Source of the DNA: Deltaproteobacteria bacterium
GTDB taxonomy: Bacteria > Desulfobacterota > Syntrophorhabdia > Syntrophorhabdales > Syntrophorhabdaceae
Reading direction: 5' to 3'
Length of the DNA stretch: 64,000 bases
Assembly: GCA_029777945.1 (NCBI GenBank)
Contig: JAKORG010000025.1
Span: 1 to 64,000, forward strand
The notes under the pieces are model-generated. The model ran no database searches, was not told the DNA's origin, and saw only the letters and a list, made by a program, of their open reading frames with translations. Below, in pieces: positions 24,593-41,901 of the stretch. Within the stretch, counting starts at the first letter, position 1; every line of letters begins with the position of its first letter. A program made the position numbers and the translations under genes.

Positions 24593-26868
24593 CGCTTCCC
24601 TCCCTTGTTTTTTTCTAATAGTTTCAAAACATTATCCGGTGTAAGGGGCAGTTCTTCGAAGAGCATGCCCGTTGCATTTGTAAATGCACAGGCTATGGCG
24701 CTATATGCGTTCATCCTAATTGTGAGACCACCTTCCTTTGCACCAAAAGGACCTTTCGGGTCATTAGAGCTTACAATAATCGTTTCAATATCAGGCATAT
24801 CGCATGCAAGGGGCACTTTATATTCCAGTAAATCAGGATTTAAAAGAAAACCTTTATACCACATATTGCCTTCAAAAATCGTAGCAATCCCTGCCTGTCC
24901 CACAGAACCTTCCATCTGACCCTCCACTGCCATGGGATTGATAGGTCTGCCGCAATCGTGGGCTGCAATAAATTTTGGGACCTTTATCTTTCCCGTCTCC
25001 TCATCTATTTCTATTTCTGCCACTGAAGTGCCGAAGGAATATGTTCCTGCCATCTGTCCTTCTGGTTTCGATACCCATTCCCTCTCAAGGTCAATATCTG
25101 GGAAGAAGGAACCAGTGCCTACTATAGGTTCACCTTTAAAAAATGCCTCCCTTGTTATCCAGGAAATGGGCATCCTTTTATCAGGTGTTTTTACGGAATA
25201 GGCAACGCGGTCCTTTAAATCTATCTCTTCTTCAGGCACACCTAATTTTTTAGAGGCAATGGCAATAATCTTTTTCCTTGCATCTTCACAGGCAGCCTTA
25301 ACGGCATTGGCACCTACATATGCCGCTGCCTGAGAATACGAACCTGGATCGAGGTTTGTAACTTCAGTGTCTGCGTTCACAAGGTTTATATCATCCATGG
25401 GGATACCGAGTACCTCTGAGGCAACTTGAACTGCCAGAGATTCATTTCCCTGACCGTTATCCACCATTCCAGTTATGAGGGTTACCTGACCGTCATCGTT
25501 TATCTTGACATAACACGATGAACCGGAACGGAACCCCATAGGAAAACCGCACATTATGGCCACGCAACCCATACCTATACCTTTATTTCGTGTATGTTTT
25601 TTCCATTTCTTTTTAAAATCTGATTTTTCAGCGGCTTGAATGATTGTGTCTTTTAAGCCGCAACTTATTATCTTTGATTTTGTTGCCGTTAATTCACCGG
25701 CAGTAAGACCGTTTTTCAATCTTACCTCTACGGGGTCAAGCCCTAATTCCTTTGCCATCAGATCCATTTGTGCCTCATTGCCTGCAAGAAAAGCCCTGCC
25801 ATGGCACCCATACATCCCCCTGATACCTTTATTTGTAAATACCCTGTAACCATCGTAGCGGACATTGGGTAGACGATAACATTCTTCATAAACATAATAT
25901 GGTATGGAAGTAGCAATAGGCCCTGTGGAACTATATGCACCACCATCATATATGGTCTTATACTCTTTTGCCACTATTGTTCCATCCTTTTTCATCCCTG
26001 TCTTAACAGTAGCAATAATGTCATGGACCTGTCTTGAACACATTGCATTTTCTTCCCTTGTTAAAACGAGCTTTACAGGTCTACCAGATTTTATGGAAAG
26101 AAGGGATGCTACAAGGTCACCGGGCGCAACTTCAGAACGGCCTCCAAATGCCCCTCCTGAATTTATATGTCTTACCCTTACCCTATTTAGCGGTAATTTT
26201 AAAAGGTTTGAGAGTGCCTTTGCACGGACATGGGGACCTGCATTGGGCATCCAGAGGTCAAGATAACCATTGGCATATGAGGCAACCACTGCATATGGTT
26301 CCATCATGGCATATGCCTCACCTTTTGCCTTAAAGGTATCCTCCCTTACAATATATGCCTTTGCCATTGCCTTATCCACATCGCCCACTTCTATATGGAT
26401 ATGTATGTTTATGTTGTTTTTGTATTGTTCGTGAATCTGCGGTGCTGTGTCTTTCATGGCTTCAACAGGGTCAAAAACCGCTTCCAGTGGCTCATATTCC
26501 ACTTTGATTAATGATAAGGCCTCAATGGCACTTTCTTCGTCTACTGCTGCCACTGCTGCCACATCCTCACCTATGTATCGCACCTTATCTGTAGGTAGCA
26601 TGGCATGATCCTGGGTATACCGGAATACACCCCATTTAACTCCATAGGCATCAAAGCCTGATATAGCAGCCTTGACACCTGGAACCTTAAGGGCTTTTGA
26701 TACATCGATATTTAAAATCTTTGCATGGGGATAGGGGCTCCTCAATACCTTGGCATATAACATACCCGGTAGTTTTAAGTCAGCAGTATACAAAGCCCCA
26801 CCTGTTACCTTTGCATAAGAATCGCTTCTTATAACCCTTTTTCCTACTATCTTTAGGTTTTCATCCAT
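24589..26868 (-). CDS. molybdenum hydroxylase, molybdopterin-binding subunit (set 2)
   Basis: The 759-residue protein has the family features VRYIGEDVAAVAAVDEESA, HINSGGAFGGRSEVAPGD, GIRGMYGCHGRAF and GMVDNGQGNESL. The C-terminal active-site motif, normally GAKGxGE with a catalytic Glu, reads GPFGAKEGGLT, so Leu (about residue 715) replaces the Glu. The start is placed at 26868 because GGGGG lies 6 nt before that ATG; an ATG two codons upstream is too close to it. The first bases overlap nothing, but the upstream subunit ends only 10 bp earlier. Confidence 0.88.
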   Translation of the reverse strand: MDENLKIVGKRVIRSDSYAKVTGGALYTADLKLPGMLYAKVLRSPYPHAKILNIDVSKALKVPGVKAAISGFDAYGVKWGVFRYTQDHAMLPTDKVRYIGEDVAAVAAVDEESAIEALSLIKVEYEPLEAVFDPVEAMKDTAPQIHEQYKNNINIHIHIEVGDVDKAMAKAYIVREDTFKAKGEAYAMMEPYAVVASYANGYLDLWMPNAGPHVRAKALSNLLKLPLNRVRVRHINSGGAFGGRSEVAPGDLVASLLSIKSGRPVKLVLTREENAMCSRQVHDIIATVKTGMKKDGTIVAKEYKTIYDGGAYSSTGPIATSIPYYVYEECYRLPNVRYDGYRVFTNKGIRGMYGCHGRAFLAGNEAQMDLMAKELGLDPVEVRLKNGLTAGELTATKSKIISCGLKDTIIQAAEKSDFKKKWKKHTRNKGIGMGCVAIMCGFPMGFRSGSSCYVKINDDGQVTLITGMVDNGQGNESLAVQVASEVLGIPMDDINLVNADTEVTNLDPGSYSQAAAYVGANAVKAACEDARKKIIAIASKKLGVPEEEIDLKDRVAYSVKTPDKRMPISWITREAFFKGEPIVGTGSFFPDIDLEREWVSKPEGQMAGTYSFGTSVAEIEIDEETGKIKVPKFIAAHDCGRPINPMAVEGQMEGSVGQAGIATIFEGNMWYKGFLLNPDLLEYKVPLACDMPDIETIIVSSNDPKGPFGAKEGGLTIRMNAYSAIACAFTNATGMLFEELPLTPDNVLKLLEKNKGGKR

Positions 26869-26878
26869 ACACATCCCC

Positions 26879-29167
26879 CTAAATTTTTTTTTCTCCCTCT
26901 TTTGCCTTAATAGCTGCAAGCACCTTCTCAGGCGTAATAGGCAAATCTTTTATCCTTACACCAATGGCATCGTAAATAGCATTGGCAATAGCAGGTGCTG
27001 TTGGCACAAGTCCTGGTTCTCCAATGCCCTTTGCACCAAATGGACCTTCCTTCTCCTCTGTTTCTACTATAACAGGTTGAATGGGAGGCACATCCTTGAC
27101 AGTGGGTATCTTGTAATCAAGGAAATTTCCGTTCATCAATCTTCCATCTTTGTAGATCATCTTTTCGCCGAGGGCATAGCCTATACCCTGCAGACCGCCA
27201 CCGTAAATCTGGCCTTCAAGAAGAAGGGGATTTATGGCCTTACCCACATCGTGGGCAGCTATGTAGTTTAAAATCTTCACCTTTCCCGTTTCTTTATCCA
27301 CCTCAACTTCTACACCATGGGTACCATAAGCATAAGATGCTGAGAGATTACCTTTAAATTCCTTATCAAAGTTTTCGTTGGCAGGGTCATAAAAATACTC
27401 AGCCATGAGCATCTTACCGCCAGTGGTATAGTGTATTCTCCTTAATACCTTGCCAAGGGGTATACTCTTTTCAGAATTTTTTGTTGAGAATATAATGCTG
27501 TCCTTGATATCGAGGTTTGAAGGTTCTTCTTCGAAGATCTTCGATGCTGCATCGAGAATCTGTTGCCTAATCCTATTGGCAGCACCGAGGGCAGCGTTTC
27601 CTGCAACGAATGTGGTTCTGCTTGCGTGAACGCCCACATCCCATGGACATACCTCTGTATCGTTATTGATTACATTCACATCTTCTATGGGAATACCTAA
27701 AACCTCTGCAACGATCTGGGCAATTACTGTATCAGAACCTTGACCTATATCGCTTGCACCGGTAAATACATCGACTTTGCCGAAATCGTCCATTTTTATA
27801 ATTGTGCCACAACCATCGGATTTATAAACACGGGCACCACCACCTACGTGTATTAATGATGCCATACCCACGCCCCTTCCTTTATCCTTTCCTCTTTTTT
27901 CTTTCCAGTTAAGCCTTTTTGCAACCTCTTCGATACATTCCTTCATACCACAGGATGTTATCTTGAACCTCTGTGGTGTAATTTCACCAGGTTCGTTGGC
28001 ATTTATCCTCCTTATTTCAAGGGGATCAATATCAGCCTTTTCGGCAAGCTGGTCGAGGTTTGATTCTATTGCAAATGTAGCCTGGGGATTACCGTATCCT
28101 CTCATAGCCTGGCAGTATGTATTATTTGTATAAACACATTTGGCAGTGTATTTTACATTTGGCACCTTGTAAAGGGATGATATGGGCAGCATCATAACAG
28201 ATGGCGTTGTAGCACCCCACGATGTATATGCACCGTTATCTAATATCATTTCCACTTCCCTGAATGTGAGTCTTCCTTCTTTGTCGCAACCTTGTGATAT
28301 TTTCGTTATGGTGCACTGCCGCGGGGAGGTGGCAAAGAATTCCTCTTCCCTTGTAAATATTATCTTTACAGGTTTTTTTGTCTTAAGGGCAAGTAAAATG
28401 GCGATATATTCATATGCATAGGTGTCGAGTTTACTTCCAAATCCGCCGCCTATTACAGCCTGGATAATCCTTACACGCCTATTCTTTAATCCAAAGGCAT
28501 TTAGTGCCTCTACAAAATCGTTCTGGGCAAGGGAGGGAATCTGTGTGTTACTATATAAAGTAAGGTTATTCTGCATATCAAAATGGGCAATGCAGCCGCT
28601 TGTTCCAAGGCAGCAGTGTGTAACCCATTGCGTAGAAAATGTATCCTCTGCTATGTAAGCGGATTCATCTTTTGCCTTTTCCACATCTCCGCATACAAGT
28701 CTCCAGGGCAGTTTAAGGACATTGGATTTTGCCTCCTCGTGGAGTATGGGTGCACCTTCTTTCATGGCCTCTAATGGGTCAAATATACCGGGAAGCTCTT
28801 CGTATTCTACTTCAATTAAGGATAGGGCCTCTTCTGCTATTTCTTGGCTTGTAGCTGCAACAGCGGCAATTTCATCGCGTATGGATAGAACCTTTTTTGA
28901 CTTTAAAGGTGGATTGTCTTTCATAAAACCAATTCTAAAATTGGGAGGCATATCCTTTGCTATTACAATTGCCTTTACACCTGCCAGCTTTTCTGCCTTT
29001 GATGTATCAATCTTTAAGATGTTTGCATGGGGATATTTACTGTATAATATTTTTCCGTATAGCATCCCAGGTAGTTTTATATCCTGGATATATTGTGCAA
29101 CACCTGCTGCCTTAAGGGGTGCATCTAATTTCGGTATTTTTTTTCCAACTACTTTAAGGTTTTCCAT
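26879..29167 (-). CDS. molybdenum hydroxylase, molybdopterin-binding subunit (set 1)
   Basis: The 762-residue protein shows VIGGGFGSKLDTYAYE, GASDIGQGSDTVIAQIVAE, VCPWDVGVHASRTTFVAGNA, and an intact active-site motif GPFGAKGIGEPGL with the catalytic Glu. It should hydroxylate or dehydroxylate an N-heterocyclic or aryl-CoA substrate using water-derived oxygen. In the pathway proposed for the operon this is the best candidate for indoleacetate ring hydroxylation. It differs from the set-2 subunit throughout, so the two are old paralogues, not a recent duplication. Confidence 0.92.
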   Translation of the reverse strand: MENLKVVGKKIPKLDAPLKAAGVAQYIQDIKLPGMLYGKILYSKYPHANILKIDTSKAEKLAGVKAIVIAKDMPPNFRIGFMKDNPPLKSKKVLSIRDEIAAVAATSQEIAEEALSLIEVEYEELPGIFDPLEAMKEGAPILHEEAKSNVLKLPWRLVCGDVEKAKDESAYIAEDTFSTQWVTHCCLGTSGCIAHFDMQNNLTLYSNTQIPSLAQNDFVEALNAFGLKNRRVRIIQAVIGGGFGSKLDTYAYEYIAILLALKTKKPVKIIFTREEEFFATSPRQCTITKISQGCDKEGRLTFREVEMILDNGAYTSWGATTPSVMMLPISSLYKVPNVKYTAKCVYTNNTYCQAMRGYGNPQATFAIESNLDQLAEKADIDPLEIRRINANEPGEITPQRFKITSCGMKECIEEVAKRLNWKEKRGKDKGRGVGMASLIHVGGGARVYKSDGCGTIIKMDDFGKVDVFTGASDIGQGSDTVIAQIVAEVLGIPIEDVNVINNDTEVCPWDVGVHASRTTFVAGNAALGAANRIRQQILDAASKIFEEEPSNLDIKDSIIFSTKNSEKSIPLGKVLRRIHYTTGGKMLMAEYFYDPANENFDKEFKGNLSASYAYGTHGVEVEVDKETGKVKILNYIAAHDVGKAINPLLLEGQIYGGGLQGIGYALGEKMIYKDGRLMNGNFLDYKIPTVKDVPPIQPVIVETEEKEGPFGAKGIGEPGLVPTAPAIANAIYDAIGVRIKDLPITPEKVLAAIKAKEGEKKI

Positions 29168-29169
29168 GT

Positions 29170-29634
29170 TTACCTCCCTGCTGCTACTGATTTAATAGCA
29201 TCTATAATCATCACATAGCCTGTGCATCTGCAGAGATTTCCTTCGATTGCCTCTTTTATATCATCTTCTGTGGGATTTGGTTTTTCATCGAGAAGCGCCT
29301 TGGCAGACATAATCATACCTGGGGTGCAAAAACCACACTGGACAGCGCCCTTTTCAATAAATGCCTTTTGCAGGACATGGAGTTCACCGTTTTTTGATAA
29401 TCCTTCAATAGTGGTGATGTTTTTTCCTTCTGCCTCAAGGACAGGATAAATACATGAGTTTACAGCCTTTCCTTCAATGATTACAGTGCAGGCACCGCAT
29501 TCACCGTAACCGCATCCTTCTTTTGTCCCTGTTAGCCCAAGAACCTCTCTTAAAAGATACAGAAGTGTCCACTTTGGCTCTACTTCTACTGTTACTTCCT
29601 CATTGTTCAGAGTAAATGTGATTTCTTTTCTCAT
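29170..29634 (-). CDS. molybdenum hydroxylase, [2Fe-2S] subunit (set 1)
   Basis: The 154-residue protein has both [2Fe-2S] sites: CGYGECGACTVIIEG with NSCI, and QCGFCTPGM with NLCRCTGY. It is the electron-transfer subunit of the set-1 enzyme and lies between its FAD and Mo subunit genes, 2 bp before the latter. Confidence 0.93.
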   Translation of the reverse strand: MRKEITFTLNNEEVTVEVEPKWTLLYLLREVLGLTGTKEGCGYGECGACTVIIEGKAVNSCIYPVLEAEGKNITTIEGLSKNGELHVLQKAFIEKGAVQCGFCTPGMIMSAKALLDEKPNPTEDDIKEAIEGNLCRCTGYVMIIDAIKSVAAGR

Positions 29635-29643
29635 AAATACCCC

Positions 29644-30621
29644 CTACCATAGTCTTTCTGGATAAATTTCTTCATCTGGTCTTACTATCCTGTCAATTGA
29701 TTTCATAAGTGCCCTTTTTACGAGGACCTTTATCATCTCTTTTCTATACCATGCCTCACCCCTTATGCTGTCCCTCGGTTGTGCTTCACTGGCTGCGATT
29801 TCACCGACCTCCTCAAAAAGCTCAATGGATATGATTTTTCCAGCGAGTGCCTCTTCAGCCTTTTTTGCCCTTATTGGTTTCGGTGCAACAACGCCCATGG
29901 CAATCCTTGCTTCCTCGCATTTTAGTCCTTCATCCTTCAATTGCATAAGGATGTTAGAAATGCTGTCAATGGTACACAGTAAATCTCTGCATCGTATTTG
30001 ACTGTCTTTATCCAGGCTTATAGTTATCCTTGTGGCAACTCCCAGAATGGGTAAGTCCATTGCCTCCCTTCTTGTGTGTTTTATATAAGCAGAGCCTGTA
30101 TTTTCTTTTAATCTGGGCATTGAAAACTCTTTGAGTATCTCATCTTTTTCAAGAACCGTCTTTCCTGGTCCTAAAAAGAATTCATTCAAATCCACTTCCC
30201 GTTCGCCCTTTGTCCCTATTATAACTGCCTTTGCATCGAAAATAAGTAAAGGACAGGCAGTATCTGCGGAAGGCGCTGCATTACAGATGTTTCCACCGAT
30301 AGTAGCTACATTTCTAATCTGTTTCGAACCGAGACGACTCGTTGCATCTGTTAATGCAGAATAGTATTTTTTTATGTATTCGTTTTTGTCAATATCATCA
30401 TGGGTTACTAAGCTGCCTATTTTCAATCCATCTTTGGTGTCGATGTTACGTAATTCAGAAATATTCCTCAAAGATATAAGATGCTGGGGAGATATCTTTT
30501 TCTGTCTTAGTTGCACCATAACATCAGTGCCACCGGCAATAAACTTTGCGTTGTCAAGGCCTGACATAATTTTTATGGCCTCTTCTATTGAATTTGGCTT
30601 ATAGTATTCAAAGCTTCTCAC
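29644..30621 (-). CDS. molybdenum hydroxylase, FAD subunit (set 1)
   Basis: The 325-residue protein has KFIAGGTDVMVQLRQKK and RNVATIGGNICNAAPSADT, the typical FAD loops of the XDH medium subunit, and no extra cysteine loop. It therefore resembles ordinary XDH/CoxM-type subunits and should pass electrons to a usual acceptor. The start is GTG after GGAGG. Confidence 0.92.
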   Translation of the reverse strand: MRSFEYYKPNSIEEAIKIMSGLDNAKFIAGGTDVMVQLRQKKISPQHLISLRNISELRNIDTKDGLKIGSLVTHDDIDKNEYIKKYYSALTDATSRLGSKQIRNVATIGGNICNAAPSADTACPLLIFDAKAVIIGTKGEREVDLNEFFLGPGKTVLEKDEILKEFSMPRLKENTGSAYIKHTRREAMDLPILGVATRITISLDKDSQIRCRDLLCTIDSISNILMQLKDEGLKCEEARIAMGVVAPKPIRAKKAEEALAGKIISIELFEEVGEIAASEAQPRDSIRGEAWYRKEMIKVLVKRALMKSIDRIVRPDEEIYPERLW

Positions 30622-30636
30622 AATAACCTCCTTCTT

Positions 30637-31941
30637 TTAATCTCTATTATCAAACACCCTTTTTGTTTTTCTTTCAGAGCGGGGAAGGGAACCGTAATCA
30701 ACAATCTCCACCTCACAGCTTACCATTATCTGTTTCTTTATGGCATCTTCTATTTTCTTTCTTACCTGTTTGTCAAGCTCATCTGAAGGTTTTAATTCAT
30801 GGGCCCTTTCAACCTTTACCAACATGTTATCCTTTCCACTTTTTTGATCTCTGGATAGGATTATCTGAAATTCGCTGCCTACCTCTTTTATCTTTGAGAG
30901 TATTTCATCAATATGGCTTGGGTAGATGTTCACTGCCCTGAAGATAAACATATCATCAGAACGGCCCATAATTCTGTCGTGCCTTGGCATAAGACTACCG
31001 CAAGGACATTCACCGGGGATAAGCCTTGTCAAATCCCTTGTCCTGTAACGAATAAGGGGCGCTGCCTCTTTTCTCAATGTGGTTACAACCATCTCACCCA
31101 CCTCACCTTCAGGCACAGGTTCCAGTGTTTCAGGGTTGAGTATTTCCAGTATATAGTAATCTGCCCAGTAATGAATACCTGTATGATAGCGGCAGTCAAG
31201 GTCTGTCCCTGGACCGTATAGTTCGGTCATGCCAGGTATATCAAATAGCTGGTCATAGGCAACACCTGAAAGCTCTGAAATCCTTTTTCTCATAGCATCG
31301 CTTGAACGTTCTGAACCGAATATTAATTTCTTTAATGCAATCTTTCCCCTCAAGCCCCTTTTATCAATCTCCTCTGCCATTAAAAGCCCCATAGAGGCAG
31401 TACATGTCATGACAGTTGTTCCAAAGTCCTCAAGAAACTGACACTGCATGTCAATATTGCCAGGGCCTATGGGGATTGACATGGCGCCAAATCGTTCACA
31501 GCCATTTTGAAAACCCCACCCTGCAGTCCATACGCCGTAGCCCACTGCAATCTGGATTCTGTCCTCTACGGTGCAATCTGCATATGCATAACAGCGGGCA
31601 AACATATTTGCCCAGTCATCCACATCCTTTGCTGTGTAACATAAGACTTTTCTTTTTCCTATAGTGCCACTTGAGGCATGGATACGGATAACCTTTTCCA
31701 TAGGCACACTCAATAGGGGAAAGGGATATCCCTCCTGAAGGTCTTTGCTTGTCGTAAATGGTAGCTTTTTAATATCATCCAGTGATTGGATGTCCTTTGG
31801 TTTTACACCTGCCTCATCTAATTTCTTTCTATAATGAGGTGAACCGTTGTATGCATGGTTAACTGTCCATTTTAAACCTTCAAGTTGAAGTGCCTTTAGC
31901 TCTGCTTCTGTTTTTACAGTTGCATCAAAAGGTCTTTTCAT
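30637..31941 (-). CDS. phenylacetate-CoA ligase family enzyme (IaaB/PaaK-like)
   Basis: The 434-residue AMP-forming ligase shows IHASSGTIGKRKVLCYT (phosphate loop), YGVWTAGWGFQNGCERFG, DIPGMTELYGPG, RYRTRDLTRLI and GRSDDMFIFRAVNIYPSHI, as in PaaK. It activates an aryl-acetate-like acid to its CoA ester. In Aromatoleum a relative (IaaB) is an indoleacetate-CoA ligase. The start is ATG 31941, 6 nt after AGGAGG; the GTG at 31962 contains that site within its first codons and is rejected. Confidence 0.88.
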   Translation of the reverse strand: MKRPFDATVKTEAELKALQLEGLKWTVNHAYNGSPHYRKKLDEAGVKPKDIQSLDDIKKLPFTTSKDLQEGYPFPLLSVPMEKVIRIHASSGTIGKRKVLCYTAKDVDDWANMFARCYAYADCTVEDRIQIAVGYGVWTAGWGFQNGCERFGAMSIPIGPGNIDMQCQFLEDFGTTVMTCTASMGLLMAEEIDKRGLRGKIALKKLIFGSERSSDAMRKRISELSGVAYDQLFDIPGMTELYGPGTDLDCRYHTGIHYWADYYILEILNPETLEPVPEGEVGEMVVTTLRKEAAPLIRYRTRDLTRLIPGECPCGSLMPRHDRIMGRSDDMFIFRAVNIYPSHIDEILSKIKEVGSEFQIILSRDQKSGKDNMLVKVERAHELKPSDELDKQVRKKIEDAIKKQIMVSCEVEIVDYGSLPRSERKTKRVFDNRD

Positions 31942-31974
31942 ATGTATCCTCCTATAATCCACATATAATTAATT

Positions 31975-33690
31975 TTATTTTGTCTCCCTTATCTTTCTTG
32001 TTTCTTCCCAATTTATTTCCAGTGTTGAAGGATTTATTATTACACCGTAATCATTTTTTGCGCTTTCTATGCTAATATAGCCTTCTATTACATCGTTTAG
32101 AACCATCTCAGGATCTCTCTCAAAAGGATTTCCATATCCACCACCACCAGGTGCATCAATGGTTACCACATCACCTGGTTTTAACTGTGTTAGACCATAT
32201 GGATTTCCTGGCTTATTGTTTACAAGAAACTGGCCTTTTCTGCCTGGTTTTCCCCCAAATAGACCTTCTGCAGGATACACGTATCTTCCGGCCTGTATTC
32301 CAAGATTTACAGGTGGTATAGGTGCATAGTCATCGCTGGGAACTCTAAAGACCTCTCTTTTGCCAAGACCACCTTTTGTCTTTCCTGGACCACCAGAGTC
32401 TGGTAAGAGTTCTCTTTTTTCAACAATGAGGGGTGTATCGTTTTCAAAAATTTCAACGGGTGTGTTTGCACCGTTTGCAGGAAATATATAAACATAATTT
32501 CCATCGTTTTTAGCCCCTGCACCCATGCCTTCACCCCTTATTATGACAGAATGCCAGGGTTTACCGTCTTTTCTTCTACCGTAGAATACATTCATTGCTG
32601 CAGGTGTTCCTCCTGAACCTGCAATTACCTTATCAGGCAAAACCTCTGATAATGCCCTGTATATTATTTCTGTCATAAAGTGACCCACCTGCATACGGGC
32701 TGCAACTGCTGCTGGAAACTTGCAGTTCACAACAGTGCCTTCAGGTGCATATAGTTTTATGGGCTTTGCACATCCATCATTATTGGGGATATCAGGGGCA
32801 AACATACTTTTAATAGCCATAAATACATATGCATAGGTAAAGTTAAATACTACATTTCCACCCCAGTTTACCTGAGGTGATGAGCCATCGAGATCCACAA
32901 TAATATCAGTATCTTTTACCTCGACCTTTGCATTTATAATTATATCTTCATTTCCTTTAGTCTGTTCTATTATACCTTTTGCCTGATACACACCTTTAGG
33001 AATCTTTGCTATCTCTTCTCTCATGCTCTTTTCAGTGACCCCGATTATCTGATTTGCCAGATCATCGAGATTTTCAAGATTATTATCTTTTAACATCTGA
33101 CAGATTTTCTCAGAACACACATAATTTGCTGCAATCTGAGATCTTATGTCGCCTATTACCTCGTCAGGGGTTCTAACATTCCATTTTATTAAGTCTAAAA
33201 CAGATTGATTCAGAACCCCTCTGTCATATAATTTTACAAAAGGAATAAAAAGTCCTTCCTCGAATACATCGTGATTATCCGATGCAACCCTTCCTCCTAT
33301 GTCAGAATGGTGAAATACACAGGCAGTAAATGCAACGAGTTTATCTTTATAAAAAATAGGGCTCATAACACACACATCGTTTAGATGCCCTGCAAGGGCC
33401 CATGGGTCATTAGTAATGAATACATCCCCTGGTCTGTAATAATCAGGTGGAAATTTGTTTACAAGATTTTTTATACCCAGTGCCATTGCACCTGATTGGC
33501 CAGGGGTAGCAAATGTGCCCTGTGCAAGTTCTCTACCAAATCTGTCTGTAAACATGCAGGTGTAATCGTGGGCATCTCTCAGAAGGCTTGAAAAGGTTGT
33601 TCTGGCAACGCTTGAATCTGCTTCATCTACTATGGAAATGAGCCTGCGCCACAGAATCTCCAGTGTTATGGGATCAAAAACAACTGCCAT
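31975..33690 (-). CDS. hydantoinase/oxoprolinase beta subunit (HyuB)
   Basis: The 571-residue protein has the HyuB features NDPWALAGHLNDVCVMSPIF, FHHSDIGGRV, GTPAAMNVFYGRR, LPDSGGPGKTKGGLG and DAPGGGGYGNPFERDP. With HyuA it forms an ATP-dependent lactam/cyclic-amide hydrolase or a related carboxylase. In the indoleacetate pathway this pair opens the 2-oxindole ring. It starts at TAATG with the hyuA stop, with GGAGGTGA in front. Confidence 0.9.
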   Translation of the reverse strand: MAVVFDPITLEILWRRLISIVDEADSSVARTTFSSLLRDAHDYTCMFTDRFGRELAQGTFATPGQSGAMALGIKNLVNKFPPDYYRPGDVFITNDPWALAGHLNDVCVMSPIFYKDKLVAFTACVFHHSDIGGRVASDNHDVFEEGLFIPFVKLYDRGVLNQSVLDLIKWNVRTPDEVIGDIRSQIAANYVCSEKICQMLKDNNLENLDDLANQIIGVTEKSMREEIAKIPKGVYQAKGIIEQTKGNEDIIINAKVEVKDTDIIVDLDGSSPQVNWGGNVVFNFTYAYVFMAIKSMFAPDIPNNDGCAKPIKLYAPEGTVVNCKFPAAVAARMQVGHFMTEIIYRALSEVLPDKVIAGSGGTPAAMNVFYGRRKDGKPWHSVIIRGEGMGAGAKNDGNYVYIFPANGANTPVEIFENDTPLIVEKRELLPDSGGPGKTKGGLGKREVFRVPSDDYAPIPPVNLGIQAGRYVYPAEGLFGGKPGRKGQFLVNNKPGNPYGLTQLKPGDVVTIDAPGGGGYGNPFERDPEMVLNDVIEGYISIESAKNDYGVIINPSTLEINWEETRKIRETK

Positions 33691-35783
33691 TATCTCACCT
33701 CCTTAATATCTATCCAGAGGAATCCGTATTCATCCATCCTGACATGGGCATCTTCACCTACCACAAGGGTTGATTCCCTTTCCTCTATTATTGCTGGCCC
33801 CCTAAAACTTGCCTCAGGGAAAAGTCTGTATCTATCATACACTGTGTATGGTATAAAATCCTTTGCAATGGGTGAATAGGCCAGTCTTTTCCCTTTTATA
33901 GCATCTTCTAAAGATTGACCATTCTTTCTTGTAAGTTTTGGTAGTTTAAGAAGCTTTACAGGCAGAGACGCCCTTACTTTGAAGTTTATAAACTCCACCT
34001 CTGAATCAGGGTAAGTTCTACCGTATAGTTTTTCATAACTCTCATCAAATAGTCTTCTGATGAGTTCCTTTGAAAATGTGCCAAAATCTCCCTCTGGCGC
34101 AGATATATTCACTTCTGACCCTTGACCCACAAATCTCATATCAAGGGAACGTTCAAAAGAAATGTAATCACCAGATTCCTTTTTTAATATATGGAGTGCC
34201 TCATTTTCCATCTCTTTAAAAAGTCTTTCAATCTCGTGGAAATCTACCTGACTTAAAGATACCTTGTGGCTTCTCAGTAGATCAAATGCCCTTGGTACAG
34301 TAAAGAAACCCATGGCTGAACCAACCCCTGCATTTGGTGGCACAATTATGCGTGGTGCTTCGAGTTTTTTTGCAAGACCATATGTATGGACTGGACCGGC
34401 TCCACCAAAGGCAGCTATTGTAACAATTTTTGGGTTTCCTCCTTTTTCTGCAATATGTGTTTTTGCTGCAGCTGCCATGGTTTCATTGATGAGATCGTGT
34501 ATGCCCCATATGGCCTGGACAAAGGATACACCCAGTGGTTTTGCTATCTTCTCTTCTACCCCACGCCTTGCACTTTCTTTATCTAATTTCATCTCTCCGC
34601 CAAGAAAATAGTTTTCGTCAAGGTAACCGAGGAGTAAATCTGCATCTGTTACGCACGGTTCAGTCCCCCCTCTTGCATAACAGATAGGGCCTGGGTCAGC
34701 ACCTGAACTTTCAGGTCCTACCTGGAGTGTACCGAATTTACTTACCTTTGCAATGCTTCCACCACCTGCACCTATCTCCATTAAATCCACAACAGGCACC
34801 TGGATGGTAAGACCACTGCCTTTCATAAATCTCTGAACACGACCTACCTCAAAGGTAGGCACAACGCCTGCTATACCTTTCTGTATTAAACATGATTTTG
34901 CTGTTGTGCCACCCATGTCAAAGCAGAACATCTCTGGTATATTGAAAAGCTTGCCATAATACTGACCTGCAATAACAGCAGCAGTAGGCCCTGATTCGAT
35001 AATACGAACAGGAAACTCTGCTGCAGTTTCAACAGAAGTAATACCACCACTGCTTAACATGATAAACAGTTTTCCTTTAAAACCAATGGAGGAAAGTCTT
35101 CCTGAAAGCTTTGAAAGATAACGACCTGTAAGTAGTTTTACATAGGCATTTGTAACAGTCGTGCTCGTTCTCTCATATTCTTTGATCTGGGGAAGCACCT
35201 TATAAGAAATGGAAGTAGATAACCAAGGTGCCTCTTCTTTTATAATTTCCTCTATCATTTTTTCGTGCACAGGATTTTCAAATGAATTTATTAAACACAC
35301 AGCAATAGATTCCACTCCCATTTCTATTAATGTTTTTACAACCCTTTTTGCCTCCTCTTTATCAAGGGGTTTTAGCACTTTACCGTCACTTCTTATCCTT
35401 TCATCTACTTCAAGACGTAACCTCCTTGGAACCAGTGGTTTGGGAAATTCGGCAAATATGTCATAAGGTGCATAACGGATCTCCCTTCCTATCTCGAGGA
35501 TGTCTCTAAAGCCTTTTGTTGTAATTAGCCCTGTTTTTGCACCTTTTCTCTCTATGATCGAATTTATCACAAGGGTTATTCCGTGAATAATCTCATCGAG
35601 TTTCTCCACAAAATTAGGTGTTGATTTTTCAAGTATTCTTATACCCTCTTCTACTGCATCTGAAGGGTCTTTTGGGGTTGTTAGGCATTTGGCTGTTTTT
35701 ATCTCACCTGTTTTATCGTCAATTAAAACAAAATCCGTAAAGGTTCCGCCTATGTCACATCCCAGACGAAAATACTTCTCCAT
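33690..35783 (-). CDS. hydantoinase/oxoprolinase alpha subunit (HyuA)
   Basis: The 697-residue protein has the ASKHA-type nucleotide-binding motifs RLGCDIGGTFTDFVLID and FCFDMGGTTAKSCLI, then AAFGGAGPVHTYGLA, as in HyuA/5-oxoprolinase A. It should supply the ATP-dependent activation for ring opening with HyuB. The start is set at 35783, where GGAGG sits 4 nt before ATG and the protein begins MEKYFRLG; a longer frame to 35834 would run into the mutase gene. Acetophenone/acetone carboxylases are related but use additional subunits that are absent here. Confidence 0.9.
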   Translation of the reverse strand: MEKYFRLGCDIGGTFTDFVLIDDKTGEIKTAKCLTTPKDPSDAVEEGIRILEKSTPNFVEKLDEIIHGITLVINSIIERKGAKTGLITTKGFRDILEIGREIRYAPYDIFAEFPKPLVPRRLRLEVDERIRSDGKVLKPLDKEEAKRVVKTLIEMGVESIAVCLINSFENPVHEKMIEEIIKEEAPWLSTSISYKVLPQIKEYERTSTTVTNAYVKLLTGRYLSKLSGRLSSIGFKGKLFIMLSSGGITSVETAAEFPVRIIESGPTAAVIAGQYYGKLFNIPEMFCFDMGGTTAKSCLIQKGIAGVVPTFEVGRVQRFMKGSGLTIQVPVVDLMEIGAGGGSIAKVSKFGTLQVGPESSGADPGPICYARGGTEPCVTDADLLLGYLDENYFLGGEMKLDKESARRGVEEKIAKPLGVSFVQAIWGIHDLINETMAAAAKTHIAEKGGNPKIVTIAAFGGAGPVHTYGLAKKLEAPRIIVPPNAGVGSAMGFFTVPRAFDLLRSHKVSLSQVDFHEIERLFKEMENEALHILKKESGDYISFERSLDMRFVGQGSEVNISAPEGDFGTFSKELIRRLFDESYEKLYGRTYPDSEVEFINFKVRASLPVKLLKLPKLTRKNGQSLEDAIKGKRLAYSPIAKDFIPYTVYDRYRLFPEASFRGPAIIEERESTLVVGEDAHVRMDEYGFLWIDIKEVR

Positions 35784-35805
35784 ATAACCTCCGTTTTTTA
35801 CATTT

Positions 35806-37434
35806 TTAGAACAGACTCGGCTCTTTGAATTCACCGAAAATCTGTCTAAATACGTTTGTCATTTTACCTAAGGTTGCATACACCTTACAACAATCAACAA
35901 GGTAAGGCATCACATTTTTGCCTGCCCTGGTTGCACTTTCTAACTCTTTCAATGTCCTTTTTACATCCCTTTCTGATCTCTCTCTCTTTACCTGTTTCAA
36001 GCTCTCTATTTGTTTTTTTGCTGATTCGTAGTTATATTCGTGGAGTTCTACTTCCATGGATTCACCTTCTTTATAAATATTCACACCCACCTTTAGTAGT
36101 TCCCCTGATTCAATACCCTTTTCTATTTCATATGCCTGACGTGCCACCATCCTCTGTATGTAGCCATCTGATACTGCCTTTATGATGCCACCGTAGTTTT
36201 CAATTTTAAACATCTCCTCTTCAATCTTTTCTTCCATCTGTTTTGTTAGGGTCTCCATAAAATAGCTTCCTGCAAGGGGATCAACAGTATCCCTCAGACC
36301 TACCTCGTCCATTAAAAGCTGTAATGTTCTTAGTGATATCAATGCTGAACGGGGAGTTGGTATTGTATATGCCTCATCATAACTGCAAAGGGCCGTTGTC
36401 TGGGCACCGGCAAGGGCTGCAACAAGGGCATAATAGGCACCCCTCATGATGTTGTTTTCAGGTTGGGCCTTAGTTAAACCATAGCCACCGCCACCGAAAA
36501 GACCCCTTAAAAACATATTCTGCGGTTTTTTAACACCGTATCTTTCTTTTAAATTCCTTGCCCATATTTTTCTTGCTGCCCTGAATTTTGCAATCTGCTC
36601 CCACATATTTCCAAATACATTGAGATTAAAAGAGAACCTTCCTACAAAATCATCTATATCATAGCCCCTTGCAAGGACATTATCTATATATGCATTGGCA
36701 ATAAGAATTGCATAGGCAATTTCCTGGGCAGGGGTTGCCCCTGATTCCCTGATGTGATAACCGCAGACACTAACAGGATTTGTGCGGGGCATGACCTTCA
36801 TAGAGTATTCTATGGTATCTCCTATAAGCTTTACAGCAGGCTCCACTGGAAAGATCCATGCCCCCCTGCCAATCATCTCTTTAAGTATGTCATTTTGCGG
36901 TGTTGCGGAAATCATCTTTGGGTCATAGCCGTATTTTTCTGCCACAGCCTGATACATGGCAAGCATGACAGATGCCACTGCATTTATGGTAAGACCGGTT
37001 CCTATTTTATCGAGACGAATGTCTTTAAAGGCAATTTCAAAGTCCCTGAGCGTATCAACAGCCATACCTACCCTTCCTACCTCGCCTTCTGCCATCTCGT
37101 CGTCAGAATCATAGCCCATCTGAGTGGGAAGGTCGAAGGCTACATTTAGACCTGTTTGCCCGTGGGAGATCATTAATTTAAATCTTTCATTGGTTTCTTC
37201 CGGTGTCCCAAAACCTGTATACTGCCTTGTTGTCCATGCCCTTGAACGATATCCAAGGGGGTGTATACCCCTTGTAAAAGGATATTGACCCGGGTCTGCC
37301 AGATCCATTTCATAATTAAAGCCTATCTCTTCCAGGTCCTTTGGTGAGTATAAAGGTTTTACGTGGATACCTGACTCGTATATGACATCCAAAATTTGGT
37401 CTTTTTCATCTTTTATATATCGAGCTACAGCCAT
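35806..37434 (-). CDS. B12-dependent acyl-CoA mutase, large subunit (methylmalonyl-CoA mutase family, IaaG-like)
   Basis: The 542-residue protein is the catalytic barrel of the methylmalonyl-CoA mutase family. Tyr72, Arg190 and His227 match Tyr89, Arg207 and His244 of Propionibacterium MCM (constant offset 17), so the substrate probably carries a free carboxylate. The otherwise conserved HxQTSG active-site loop is replaced by LFGGGG (residues 312-317), and TQSLHTN by AQTTALC. A widened pocket for a bulky aryl group would explain this. I propose (2-aminophenyl)succinyl-CoA mutase; an ordinary methylmalonyl-CoA mutase is the alternative. Gln in place of Arg207, expected for isobutyryl- or 2-hydroxyisobutyryl-CoA mutases, is absent. 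Confidence 0.85.
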   Translation of the reverse strand: MAVARYIKDEKDQILDVIYESGIHVKPLYSPKDLEEIGFNYEMDLADPGQYPFTRGIHPLGYRSRAWTTRQYTGFGTPEETNERFKLMISHGQTGLNVAFDLPTQMGYDSDDEMAEGEVGRVGMAVDTLRDFEIAFKDIRLDKIGTGLTINAVASVMLAMYQAVAEKYGYDPKMISATPQNDILKEMIGRGAWIFPVEPAVKLIGDTIEYSMKVMPRTNPVSVCGYHIRESGATPAQEIAYAILIANAYIDNVLARGYDIDDFVGRFSFNLNVFGNMWEQIAKFRAARKIWARNLKERYGVKKPQNMFLRGLFGGGGYGLTKAQPENNIMRGAYYALVAALAGAQTTALCSYDEAYTIPTPRSALISLRTLQLLMDEVGLRDTVDPLAGSYFMETLTKQMEEKIEEEMFKIENYGGIIKAVSDGYIQRMVARQAYEIEKGIESGELLKVGVNIYKEGESMEVELHEYNYESAKKQIESLKQVKRERSERDVKRTLKELESATRAGKNVMPYLVDCCKVYATLGKMTNVFRQIFGEFKEPSLF

Positions 37435-37448
37435 GTTGCCTCCTCCTT

Positions 37449-37856
37449 TTAAGGGGTTTTTGTTTTGTTTTTTATAAATTCTATGGTTTCTTGAAGGGGT
37501 GTCCCGCCTGGGAATACACCTTCTACACCCAATTCCTTGAGTTTAGGTATATCCTTTGAAGGTATCACGCCCCCCACAAAGACCTTCTTGTCTTCTATGC
37601 CTTTTTCTTTGAGTTTTTTCATCAGTTTTTCAGTGATGGGTATATGGGCACCTGTCATTATTGAAAGCCCTATGAAATCTACATCCTCCTGTATGGCAAT
37701 ATTTATTATCTGGTCTATTGTCTTATGGAGCCCTGAATATATCACTTCCATACCTGCATCTTTTAGTGCCTGGGCTACTACTTTGGCTCCCCTATCATGA
37801 CCGTCAAGACCTGGCTTTGCTATTAAAATCTTTATCTTATTTTTGTTATGTGGCAT
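37449..37856 (-). CDS. B12-binding small subunit of the acyl-CoA mutase (IaaH-like)
   Basis: The 135-residue protein has the base-off cobalamin motif GLDGHDRGAKV (DxHxxG), IGLSIMTGAH (SxL) and VFVGGVIP (GG). It is a stand-alone B12 domain, as in two-subunit mutases, and lies 14 bp before the large-subunit gene. The start is ATG 37856, 5 nt after GGAGG; the TTG at 37868 overlaps that site. Confidence 0.92.
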   Translation of the reverse strand: MPHNKNKIKILIAKPGLDGHDRGAKVVAQALKDAGMEVIYSGLHKTIDQIINIAIQEDVDFIGLSIMTGAHIPITEKLMKKLKEKGIEDKKVFVGGVIPSKDIPKLKELGVEGVFPGGTPLQETIEFIKNKTKTP

Positions 37857-37905
37857 GGCATCCTCCAAATACAGTTTTTATCAAAGAGATGTAAAATTAA
37901 ATTCA

Positions 37906-39045
37906 CTACTTTAAAGATTCCCTTGCTATAATTGTTTTTAATATCTCTGAGGTCCCCCCGCCAAAAAGCAGAAACCTTGCATCGCGAAAATACCTTTCCA
38001 CATCATATTCTTCTGCAATACCATATGCGCCAAATATCCTTGTCACCTGATCAACAATAAAATTTGCAGTTTCTGTGGAATAGAATTTTGCCATAGCAGA
38101 TTCTTTAACTGCAAGCTGGCCTCTATCCTTAAGCCATGCAGCATAGTAAGTAAGAAGCCATGAGGTCTTTAATCTTGTCTCCATCTCTGCAATTTTATCC
38201 TGTATAAGCTGAAAATTTCCTATGGTTTTGCCAAAGGCCTCTCTTTCCTTTGCATATTTTTTTCCTGCCTCAAATGCTGCCCTTGCAAGACCCACGCCTA
38301 AACCGGCTATCATAATCCTGATTTCACTTAATATATTTTCAAGATATTTTGCGCCTTTTCCTTCTTCTCCTAATAGATTGGTAGCTGGTATACGACAATC
38401 GTCGAATATCAACTCACCGGTTACAGAACCACGGGCTGACATCTTTTCAATCTTCTGACCAGAATAAAAACCTTGTGTGCCTTTTTCGACGAGAAAAAAG
38501 GCAAGACCGTTCAGTCGTTTTGACGGATCTATGGTTGCAACTACAGTTACAAAGTCTGCAACATCTGCATTGGTTATCCATAATTTTCTACCGTTTAATA
38601 TATATTCATTCCCACTTTTTTTTGCCCTTGTCTTTATGGCCCCAAGGTCTGAACCACAGTCAGGCTCTGTAAATGCAATGGTGCCTATTTTTTCACCTCT
38701 GATGGCTGGTATCAACAATCTTTGCCTGATATCATCTGTACCGAATCGAAAAAGAAAATCAGTGCCCATGAGACATTGCATAGTTGCTATTGCTGCAAAG
38801 GATATGGATACCCTGGCAAGTTCTTCAGTAAATATGGTAAATGTGGTGCAATCCGCATCCATTCCGCCTATTTCCTTGGGGTATCTGATGCTGTAATAAC
38901 CTAACGAACCTATTTTCTTAAAAATTTCAAAGGGAAAGGTATCAACTTTATCAATGTGTTTTGCATGGGGAGCCACAATCTCGTTTATGGTCTTAACGAA
39001 TTGTTCCCTGAAAAAGATCTGGTCCTTTGTAAAATTAAAATCCAT
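37906..39045 (-). CDS. acyl-CoA dehydrogenase lacking both usual catalytic Glu (IaaF-like, decarboxylating?)
   Basis: The 379-residue flavoprotein has TIAFTEPDCGSDLGAI and KLWITNADVADFVTV, and keeps the acyl-CoA dehydrogenase fold. The position of MCAD Glu376 is Gly363 (LLFGGGTSEIL) and that of isovaleryl-CoA dehydrogenase Glu254 is Ile242 (with a Glu next to it at 241). Loss of the proton-abstracting base is what one expects if loss of CO2 from an arylmalonyl-CoA replaces deprotonation, as described for benzylmalonyl-CoA dehydrogenase IaaF of Aromatoleum. Position beside the mutase genes supports this. Confidence 0.85.
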   Translation of the reverse strand: MDFNFTKDQIFFREQFVKTINEIVAPHAKHIDKVDTFPFEIFKKIGSLGYYSIRYPKEIGGMDADCTTFTIFTEELARVSISFAAIATMQCLMGTDFLFRFGTDDIRQRLLIPAIRGEKIGTIAFTEPDCGSDLGAIKTRAKKSGNEYILNGRKLWITNADVADFVTVVATIDPSKRLNGLAFFLVEKGTQGFYSGQKIEKMSARGSVTGELIFDDCRIPATNLLGEEGKGAKYLENILSEIRIMIAGLGVGLARAAFEAGKKYAKEREAFGKTIGNFQLIQDKIAEMETRLKTSWLLTYYAAWLKDRGQLAVKESAMAKFYSTETANFIVDQVTRIFGAYGIAEEYDVERYFRDARFLLFGGGTSEILKTIIARESLK

Positions 39046-39054
39046 CTTTTTAAA

Positions 39055-39987
39055 TCAACAATCGGGAAATATCAGACTCGATGCCTTTGATACCGCCCTG
39101 TAAAGATCCACCTCTTTTCTTTCGAGCATTTCTAAAATACCCGTGAGTTCATGATCTTGGTCCCATTTATCCATTGCCTTTGTCCAGATTTCCTCTTTTA
39201 AAAAAGAAAACATAAGCTTCTTAATTTTTTCTGACCTCGTTTTATCGAGGAGATTTTCTTCTTTTAAATGTTTTAAATGTTTTTCCGTTGCATTGACTAA
39301 TTCGTCCAATCCAGTACCTTTTTGGGCCTGGGTCATAATTAAAGGGGGTTTCCATGTATTTTTATTGTCAGAATTTATATGGGCACTTATTTCTTGCATT
39401 GCCTCTTGTGCCCCGGACATATCCGATTTATTTAGGACAATTACATCGCCGAGCTCTATCATTCCTGCCTTCATTAATTGAATTTCATCGCCGTAATCAG
39501 GGGTGAAGATTGTAATCAAGGTATCGCAAACAGAAGAGATATTGATATCCGTCTGGCCTATGCCTACGCTTTCTATTAGTATAATGTTCTTACCTAATGC
39601 CTCAAGGACATAAATGGCACCTACCGTTGCCCTTGCAATCCCACCTGGATAACCCCTATGGGCCATTGACCTAATAAAAATACCCTCTATGTTTTCAGCA
39701 TCCCTCATCCTCAGCCTATCACCGAGCAGCGCTCCTTTTGTTTTTGAACTTGTCGGGTCTATGGCAATTATCCCTATCTTTTTTCCTTTTTCTGAATATT
39801 TCAATGCCATTTTGTCTATGAGGGTGCTTTTTCCTGATCCAGGGGCACCTGTTATGCCTATTTTGTGGGCACCTCCTGTATAAGGAAATAAGAGAGAAAT
39901 GGCCCTGTATCCCTCTTCTTTGCCTTCCTCAATTAGAGAAATAAGCCTTGCTGCACTTGCCTCGTTGCCACTTAAAATCTTTTCAAT
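39055..39987 (-). CDS. meaB: MeaB/ArgK-type G protein, B12 mutase chaperone (no normal start codon)
   Basis: The frame encodes ITGAPGSGKSTLIDKMA (Walker A), IAIDPTSSKTKGALLGDR, ESVGIGQTDI and VLNKSD, which are diagnostic of MeaB, the GTPase that loads and protects adenosylcobalamin mutases. The first ATG (39810) lies after the P-loop and would destroy the protein. Upstream the frame is open to a TAA at 40015-40017 but holds no ATG, GTG or TTG. The family N-terminus (IIEKILSGNE) points to ATT at 39987, which shares one base with the GntR stop (ATTGA). Either an AUU start with coupling or a mutated start. Confidence 0.8.
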   Translation of the reverse strand: MEKILSGNEASAARLISLIEEGKEEGYRAISLLFPYTGGAHKIGITGAPGSGKSTLIDKMALKYSEKGKKIGIIAIDPTSSKTKGALLGDRLRMRDAENIEGIFIRSMAHRGYPGGIARATVGAIYVLEALGKNIILIESVGIGQTDINISSVCDTLITIFTPDYGDEIQLMKAGMIELGDVIVLNKSDMSGAQEAMQEISAHINSDNKNTWKPPLIMTQAQKGTGLDELVNATEKHLKHLKEENLLDKTRSEKIKKLMFSFLKEEIWTKAMDKWDQDHELTGILEMLERKEVDLYRAVSKASSLIFPDC

Positions 39988-40678
39988 TATTTCTATAAAT
40001 CTTAGGGTCTTTTTTTAGTTTCTTTTTGATTAGGTTTTTGCCCCTTGTAATATGTTTCCTTATTAAACTTTCAACTTGAGAGGCCTTTTTTAGTTTCATT
40101 AATTCTATCATGTCTTTATGGTCTTTTATTGATACCTCTGCCATGCCTTCGAAGCTGAAGATTAACCGTCTGAATCTATATATATAATCTCTCAAGTCGT
40201 TTATGATACTGTATAATCTCTCGCTTTTTGCAGTTCTGTAGAGTTTATCGTGGAATTCTGTATTTAATTGTATAATCTCACTTATATTTTCCAATGCTAT
40301 ACACTCTTCCTCTTTTTTTACAATCTCTTCAAGGGCCTTTATATCCTTTTCATCTGCCCTAAGCGTTGCAAGATAGCCTGCATAACCCTCAAGGACACTT
40401 CTAATACCGAAGATATCTTCTATATCTCCCTCTGTAATTTTACTTACTGCAAATCCACCCTTTGGCAGTTTTTTTATAAGCCCCTCTTTTTCAAGTTTCT
40501 GTATTGCTTCTCGAACAGGAGTTCTGCTCGTTCCTATCTCACTGGCAATCTTTTCTTCTATAAGTCTTGTATTAGGTGTTAACTTTCCGTTGAGTATAGT
40601 TGCTTTTAATTTCTTATAGACCTGTTCTCTTAAAAACTTTCCTTTTCTGATATCAGTATTGTCTTTTAGGTATTCCAT
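39983..40678 (-). CDS. GntR-family (FadR/FCD) transcriptional regulator
   Basis: The 231-residue protein has an N-terminal winged helix (LIEEKIASEIGTSRTPVREAI, LEKEGLIKKLPKGGFAV) and a C-terminal FCD ligand domain with the metal residues of NTEFHDKLY, KDHKDMI and KHITRG. Such regulators bind small acids or CoA esters. It lies inside the operon it probably controls, and two GTATAC palindromes flank the operon promoter. A pathway acid as inducer is an inference. Confidence 0.88.
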   Translation of the reverse strand: MEYLKDNTDIRKGKFLREQVYKKLKATILNGKLTPNTRLIEEKIASEIGTSRTPVREAIQKLEKEGLIKKLPKGGFAVSKITEGDIEDIFGIRSVLEGYAGYLATLRADEKDIKALEEIVKKEEECIALENISEIIQLNTEFHDKLYRTAKSERLYSIINDLRDYIYRFRRLIFSFEGMAEVSIKDHKDMIELMKLKKASQVESLIRKHITRGKNLIKKKLKKDPKIYRNN

Positions 40679-40701: not shown

Positions 40702-41901
40702 CTAAATAACTTTCTTTTTTCTTAATTCATCGAGTTGTTCCTTTTTATAACCAAGGACATCACAGTATATCTTTTCATTATGTTCCCCAAAACGAGGGGG
40801 GAAGGGTAATTTTCTGTTTTTAGATTTTACAAAGCTTGTTGTATAAGGTGGTGGGGCAAGATAAATGGTAATACCTGTTTTCTCATCTGTTGAAGAAAGT
40901 ATTTCTTCTTTTACATAGGGGTCTTCAAGAACTTCTTCAATTGTATTAACCTTTGAAATAGGAATCGTGGCTGCAGTAAACAATCTGATAAGCTCATCTG
41001 TTGTATAATTCTTTGTAATTTCTTCTATTGCCTTATTCAAATTGTCCACATCTTTAATCCTTCCCTCGTTTCTTGCATATTCTGGTTTTCCAAGAGATGC
41101 AAATCCTTCAATTTACAGCATCCTTTCCCATTGTATGTCATTTCCTACAGCAATATAAACGTAACTGTCTTTTGTTTTATATACACTTACAGGTGCAAAA
41201 AATTCATGGGTGTTGCCCCTTCTTGTTATTTTCTTGTTAAAGGATTTTGTCTGTGTTATCGGCACAGTAAGCCATGAGGTTGTGCTTTGGAACATGGATA
41301 AATCAATCCTTGAGCCTTCACCGGTTACAGCCTTTTTGTATAGGGCTTTCATGATAAGGCCATATGCATGTTCGCTTGTGCCCATATCAGGTAAAGGCAC
41401 ACCAATCACATAGGGTGGTCCATTTTTATCACCTGTCAGATCCATAAGACCACCCCTTGCTTGAAGAATCGGGTCATAGGCAGCCTCATTGCTTTGAGGT
41501 CCAAAACCTGTAAGCCCTACCCAGATAATATCTTTTTTTATGGATTTTACAGTTTCATAATCTATACCGAGTTTTTTATAATTTCTTGGTAACTGGTTTG
41601 TAGCGAATATATCCACATTTAGTTCTATAAGCAGCCTTTTAAATATTTCAGCACCTTCAGGTGTTCCCAAGTCAAGAGTAATAGCTTCTTTGTTGCAATT
41701 TATTGCAAGAAAATAGGTATACATCCTGTCTTCATTAAGCCTGTTTTCACCCACCCTTCTGTTTGGGTCACCATAAACAGGGTGTTCCATTCTTATTACC
41801 CTTATGCCATCTAAAGATAACCTGTAAGATAGATAAGGCAGGACTGTAGCCTGTTCAAGCGAAAGCATTGTTATGTTTTTAAAGATTTCATGGTCCTCCA
41901 T
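40702..41901 (-). pseudogene. class III CoA-transferase (IaaL-like), interrupted by in-frame TAA
   Basis: The 400-codon frame encodes a formyl-CoA-transferase-type (CaiB/BaiF) enzyme: VIRMEHPVYGDPNRR, NCNKEAITLDLGTPEG, YDPILQARGGLMDLTGD and PLPDMGTSEH with the likely catalytic Asp. At 41113-41115 a TAA follows IQWERML; the same frame then continues with IEGFASLGKPEYARNEGRI and the C-terminal family domain to 40702. The first 262 residues alone lack the closing domain. A relative in Aromatoleum (IaaL) activates phenylsuccinate-type acids. Recent nonsense mutation or sequence error. Confidence 0.85.

Follow-up and report, generated by a model that had tools for sequence, protein, structure and literature searches.

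A dehydrogenase without either known catalytic glutamate

The window (the whole stretch of 64,000 nucleotides analyzed here, from a genome of the Syntrophorhabdaceae) encodes an acyl-CoA dehydrogenase (ACAD) from which both of the known catalytic glutamates are missing. Judging from its sequence and its operon, the gene probably encodes an ACAD of the type of IaaF, the benzylmalonyl-CoA dehydrogenase, in an anaerobic indoleacetate-type operon, and it may be an accessory enzyme of this type that is perhaps not the main enzyme of the step. The decarboxylating base-free chemistry itself is known and already published (PMC8360864); what is new relative to that account is a second paralogue with a Gly-Gly-Gly (GGG) motif and its arrangement with genes for ETF and ETF:quinone oxidoreductase (ETF:QO), which is a modest point. 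The gene and its active-site residues are as follows.

37906..39045, minus strand: GGG-type (probably IaaF-type) acyl-CoA dehydrogenase of clade A, 379 aa (Pfam ACAD N, M, and C domains; GGG motif; AlphaFold pLDDT 94.9)
37954..37962, minus strand: GGG motif replacing Y-E-G, codons 362 to 364, with Gly363 at the MCAD Glu376 position (phmmer; IaaF signature, PMC8360864)
38320..38325, minus strand: Glu241 and Ile242, codons 241 and 242, with Ile at the isovaleryl-CoA dehydrogenase Glu254 position (phmmer alignment)
38884..38886, minus strand: codon of Arg54, a candidate carboxylate contact (no variation within the GGG clade; not found in the canonical ACADs used for comparison)

The first-pass annotation gave the coordinates 37906-39045 exactly but did not name the strand, which is the minus strand and the only one on which the reading frame is open (39045 to 37906, 379 codons). 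Residue 363 is glycine, in the context ARFLLFGGGTSEILK (FGGGTSE), and residue 242 is isoleucine, in the context NILSEIRIMIAG (SEIRIM). Positions were assigned by phmmer alignment of the window dehydrogenase to solved structures, in which FGGGTSEI was matched to IYEGTSEI of rat SCAD (1jqi) and SEIR to DMGR of the same protein, in neither case with a gap. Butyryl-CoA dehydrogenases gave the same gapless alignment at both places, so that positions 363 and 242 can be taken as correctly assigned. The MCAD/SCAD-type catalytic glutamate (Glu376 in MCAD, Glu368 in SCAD) is therefore absent, with Gly363 in its place, and so is the helix-G Glu254 of isovaleryl-CoA dehydrogenase (IVD), with Ile242 in its place; both replacements had been read correctly in the first-pass annotation.

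In other respects the protein is a standard ACAD. The FAD-contact positions W156, T158, R268, and F271 are retained together with helix-G Arg243, and the AlphaFold model (mean pLDDT 94.9) matched SCAD, MCAD, and IVD in a fold search with TM scores of about 0.95; the solved structures and this fold search returned ordinary ACADs only and no IaaF. Ortholog dN was 0.12 to 0.13 against a saturated dS, and the gene is therefore under purifying selection. When the window protein was set against ACADs with the glutamate in either place, a comparison that had been proposed with the first reading of the sequence, it had neither. The same genome contains four ACADs with Glu at the 376 position (YEG, YEG, FEG, and VEG) and one (L007) with the IVD-type Glu254 and without the 376 glutamate (NFERTL...AGG); only the window protein and the one encoded at C65:28554-29687 carry neither.

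Several known ACADs share part of these features. Isovaleryl-CoA dehydrogenase and long-chain ACAD have a small residue at the Glu376 position, as does the window protein, but their position 254 is occupied by Glu, in contrast to the Ile of the window protein. Glutaryl-CoA dehydrogenase shares the ACAD fold and oxidative decarboxylation; however, it keeps Glu370, where the window protein has Gly363, and removes the gamma-carboxylate after oxidation, and the window protein scored 293 bits against NF045552 (GlutCoADH_Des), below the cut-off of 470. The 3-sulfinopropanoyl-CoA desulfinase (AGG) and CaiA (SGG) are Glu-less ACADs like the window protein (PMC8360864). The window protein, with its motif GGG and not AGG, fell far below the NCBIfam cut-offs for the desulfinase (216 bits, cut-off 600) and for crotonobetainyl-CoA dehydrogenase (CaiA; 197, cut-off 540), and no genes of the desulfinase or CaiA pathways were seen in the operon.

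An indoleacetate-type operon around the dehydrogenase

The dehydrogenase is part of a run of genes on the same strand, in the order CoA-transferase, GntR regulator, MeaB, dehydrogenase, small and large B12 mutase subunits, HyuA, HyuB, ligase, and two Mo hydroxylase sets. Relatives have the same gene order; those that are named are Syntrophorhabdaceae and Syntrophorhabdus MAGs.

40702..41901, minus strand: family III CoA-transferase, IaaL-like (PF02515 on both halves; in-frame TAA at 41113-41115)
39983..40678, minus strand: GntR/FCD transcriptional regulator (domain match)
39055..39996, minus strand: MeaB/ArgK-type GTPase, mutase chaperone (PF03308, TIGR00750 over cut-off; ATA start, ATG in relatives)
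37449..37868, minus strand: B12-binding small subunit of an acyl-CoA mutase, IaaGH-like (PF02310, TIGR00640)
35806..37434, minus strand: large subunit of the acyl-CoA mutase, IaaGH-like (PF01642, TIGR00641; aligned to 1req and 4r3u)
33690..35834, minus strand: hydantoinase/oxoprolinase A subunit, HyuA (PF01968, PF05378)
31975..33690, minus strand: hydantoinase/oxoprolinase B subunit, HyuB (PF02538; sole copy in the genome)
30637..31962, minus strand: PaaK-like aryl-CoA ligase, IaaB-like (domain match; below the PaaK equivalog cut-off)
26879..30621, minus strand: Mo hydroxylase set 1, with FAD (29644-30621), FeS (29170-29634), and Mo (26879-29167) subunits (FeS and Mo by NCBIfam; FAD by sequence and operon order)
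23184..26919, minus strand: Mo hydroxylase set 2, with Mo (24589-26919), FAD (23645-24592), and FeS (23184-23648) subunits (Mo by NCBIfam; FAD and FeS by ORF order and sequence only)

The two Mo hydroxylase sets, each with FAD, FeS, and Mo subunits, thus follow one another downstream of the ligase (23184-30621).

The large mutase subunit retains the Tyr and Arg aligned to Tyr89 and Arg207 of methylmalonyl-CoA mutase (MCM), with TTRQYTGF and MIGRGAW aligned to TIRQYAGF and FMVRNTY of 1req, whereas the 2-hydroxyisobutyryl-CoA mutase 4r3u has Ile and Gln where the window mutase keeps these residues. In methylmalonyl-CoA mutase this pair holds the substrate carboxylate, and since the pair is kept, a carboxylated substrate of the succinyl or malonyl type fits the window enzyme.

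In the indoleacetate pathway, a Mo hydroxylase oxidizes the ring and a hydantoinase-like enzyme opens it. By its gene content, the window operon is of the indoleacetate (iaa) type. The same genome also encodes BamA of the benzoyl-CoA pathway, with a score over cut-off, and none of the papers available for searching linked Syntrophorhabdia with indoleacetate.

Predicted reaction and substrate

The IaaF of Aromatoleum aromaticum oxidizes and decarboxylates benzylmalonyl-CoA and is inactive on phenylpropionyl-CoA, the alpha-carboxylate being required; it is enantiospecific and has low activity on butyl- and hexylmalonyl-CoA (PMC8360864). All IaaF orthologues carry the GGG motif, which has been linked to the missing base and proposed to accommodate the carboxylate; loss of this group would take the place of deprotonation (PMC8360864). 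The published iaa cluster includes the ligase IaaB, the transferase IaaL, the mutase IaaGH, and the dehydrogenase IaaF, and all members of the IaaF subbranch were said in 2021 to lie in iaa operons (PMC8360864). The window enzyme resembles this IaaF in having GGG for YEG, no base, and an operon with a B12 mutase, a ligase, and a CoA-transferase, and the decarboxylation proposed in place of deprotonation would be shared by both (PMC8360864). It differs in coming from a strict-anaerobe lineage (Syntrophorhabdia) with two GGG paralogues, one of them beside ETF and ETF:QO. Its placement beside the Aromatoleum enzyme rests on motif and operon; the IaaF proteins of Aromatoleum (WP_011236983) and Ferroglobus (WP_012966786) were not among the matches of the genome-contig scan, a tblastn search of plasmids gave a best match of about 40% and no IaaF, and the PDB gave none.

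We infer the substrate, the decarboxylation, the direction of the reaction, and the transfer of electrons to ETF for the window enzyme as follows. A Mo hydroxylase and HyuAB would oxidize and open the indole ring, and the ligase and CoA-transferase would activate the ring-opened product. The B12 mutase would then convert (2-aminophenyl)succinyl-CoA to (2-aminobenzyl)malonyl-CoA, from which the window dehydrogenase would form 2-aminocinnamoyl-CoA by moving the C3 hydride to FAD as CO2 departs from C2. The Gly-Gly-Gly stretch may make room for the C2 carboxylate, and no base would be needed because this carboxylate leaves in place of a proton; the electrons would presumably be passed on to ETF. 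The first-pass annotation had proposed a benzylmalonyl-CoA-type enzyme with a chemistry unusual for the family. The GGG motif and the operon support the IaaF type, but the natural substrate is most likely the (2-aminobenzyl)malonyl-CoA of indoleacetate breakdown and not benzylmalonyl-CoA as such, and the chemistry, unusual as it is among ACADs, has already been published as the hallmark of IaaF (PMC8360864).

It is less probable, and on balance unlikely, that the GGG dehydrogenase follows the same type of mutase on another carboxylated acyl-CoA, such as one derived from an N-heterocycle or an aryl- or alkylsuccinate. Two related genomes (L050 and L123) combine this mutase type with a GGG dehydrogenase without Hyu or Mo hydroxylase genes in the 20-kb stretches read, from which the mutase/GGG module seems to have been reused for another acid, and the weak turnover of butyl- and hexylmalonyl-CoA by IaaF would be compatible with such use. 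The window operon, however, has the Hyu and Mo hydroxylase genes that are expected for an indole ring. At L050 and L123, and in the mutase part of L171, the mutase occurs with a TRAP transporter, an acyl-CoA ligase, MmgE/PrpD, MeaB, the GGG dehydrogenase, and ETF. An 832-aa frame beside another locus (L044) was considered as a glycyl-radical alkylsuccinate synthase and dropped, as it had no Pfam match.

The base-free state among relatives

Position 363 is Gly, rarely Ala, in 111 relatives, the motif being GGG with rare AGG or GAG, and in a quick tree the GGG proteins formed one clade (SH-aLRT 100) apart from the Glu-bearing ACADs; the double absence of glutamate is therefore not a chance loss. 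The 111 GGG relatives that were counted have Val or Ile at position 242, a feature by which the set was partly chosen. Six residues (Arg54, Leu92, Met93, Thr95, Ala114, and Arg336) do not vary within the GGG clade, and the Glu-type set mostly lacks them. The base-free GGG acyl-CoA dehydrogenases are thus a large clade over several phyla, mostly of anaerobes, and not the curiosity of one denitrifier, and the clade is tied to B12 acyl-CoA mutases.

The acid that the first-pass annotation had named as a possible rescue base is Glu241, one residue ahead of the IVD position, and it is very improbable that the window protein is an ordinary acyl-CoA dehydrogenase using this residue instead. An acid, Glu or Asp, stands at position 241 in 107 of the 111 GGG proteins and in 0 of the 9 Glu-type ACADs in the alignment, as a substitute base might be. 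However, the remaining four (L080, L081, L101, and L119) have Gln, and three of these (L080, L081, and L119) come from iaa-type loci with mutase, Hyu, and Mo hydroxylase genes, while L101 adjoins Hyu genes. Judged by this natural variation, Glu241 is unlikely to be essential, and the Gln variants argue against a hidden base at this position. In the AlphaFold model the residue lies on the helix 231-267, beside and not at the substrate-facing position, and the inactivity of the published IaaF on phenylpropionyl-CoA also speaks against an ordinary dehydrogenase (PMC8360864). Among other acids, E127, D133, E346, and D355 are near-invariant in the GGG clade and conserved in Glu-type ACADs too; D65 and D332 are specific to the clade. 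Because Glu241 is Gln in four relatives and several other near-invariant acids are shared with Glu-type ACADs, a base-free mechanism appears to be the best reading for the window enzyme. The decarboxylating, IaaF-type reading advanced in the first-pass annotation is accordingly well supported at the level of sequence, by the GGG motif, the iaa-type operon, the carboxylate-type mutase, and the lack of an obvious conserved base.

Two other arrangements were seen among the relatives. In a Chloroflexi MAG, a second, divergent GGG-type copy (L082:11187-12335; GAG, 44% identical) directly follows the first as a tandem pair. In candidate division LCP-89, a GGG dehydrogenase (L118 and L120:10001-11128) lies near a sigma-70-like gene, and the roughly 10 kb to each side of it contain no mutase.

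A second GGG paralogue and a possible exit of electrons

The second GGG dehydrogenase of the genome (G000:C65:28554-29687; L002, L037:9543-10688) is 51% identical to the window protein and belongs to clade B, whose members are about 51 to 53% identical to it. In this genome, the clade B gene adjoins EtfB, EtfA, ETF:QO, and FixX, beside rpoD-, dnaG-, and mutS2-like genes, and the mutase operon lies elsewhere. Several genomes have clade B close to rpoD/dnaG, and genes of matching sizes flank it in many relatives. In other genera, clade A and a clade B copy (B2) stand in tandem inside the operon and are followed by ETF genes. The physiological electron acceptor of IaaF was open in 2021, when strict anaerobes were noted to carry an ETF paralogue (PMC8360864); the ETF and ETF:QO genes beside clade B are a concrete candidate for it.

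Ten genomes (G001, which is of the same genus, G002, G003, G006, G009, G013, G020, G038, G040, and G042) keep the operon without clade A, and clade B is present in all ten. In the seven of these in which both MeaB and the B12 subunit were found, the gap between them is 24 to 239 bp, compared with about 1,200 bp in genomes that have the gene. Of the 31 genomes covered in the order, 28 have clade B together with a close homologue of the mutase, and 3 have neither. Across 395 genomes of the phylum, a GGG-type homologue (at least 44% identity) was found in 68 and the mutase (at least 59% identity) in 78, with both in 62. In these counts the motif was read in part of the 68, and related genomes do not count as independent cases.

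Because ten relatives keep the operon without clade A, all with clade B, clade A may be accessory; the likelier candidate for the core enzyme would be clade B together with its ETF, and the window protein would then be an accessory one. A fuller scheme that we put forward only tentatively has two base-free dehydrogenases serving one pathway, an ETF-linked clade B core and an optional clade A that widens the range of substrates or stereoisomers, with ETF/ETF:QO as the electron outlet of IaaF. A comparably tentative version makes clade B the core IaaF and lets clade A act on another stereoisomer or on a related arylmalonyl-CoA. It would fit the ten genomes and their short gaps, the adjoining EtfB-EtfA-ETF:QO genes in the loci read, the joint presence and absence with the mutase in the order, the A and B2 tandems with ETF genes, and the enantiospecificity of the characterized IaaF. 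However, decarboxylating chemistry would still be implied for the window gene, and an accessory role for clade A therefore refines the IaaF-type reading and does not replace it.

The occurrence of clades A and B2 in tandem in several genera, and of a B copy in nearly every genome with A, could also be expected if the window protein were a non-catalytic partner subunit in a heteromer with the clade B dehydrogenase. We consider this quite improbable, as the FAD-contact positions and the full GGG signature are retained, clade A is dispensable at the locus, and G066, a genome outside the family, shows a single GGG gene, of the A type.

Possible damage to the operon in this genome

The in-frame TAA of the CoA-transferase (41113-41115) is CAG in relatives such as G012 and G025, in which the gene is intact at 399 aa, and both halves of the window frame are conserved; either a nonsense change or an assembly error could account for it. 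No decay beyond the single stop was seen in the C-terminal part, which differs from a relative at 21 of 136 residues, compared with 20 of 136 for an intact pair, and the gene thus shows no sign of long decay. The MeaB frame has ATA (39994-39996) where relatives have ATG, and none of the start codons ATG, GTG, and TTG occurs in it ahead of the P-loop. Unless they are assembly errors, this lost ATG and the CoA-transferase stop may leave the genome with an impaired operon. Elsewhere in the same assembly, an ETF alpha-like frame (G000:C51:27588-28301) contains one in-frame TAA and is possibly a further broken gene.
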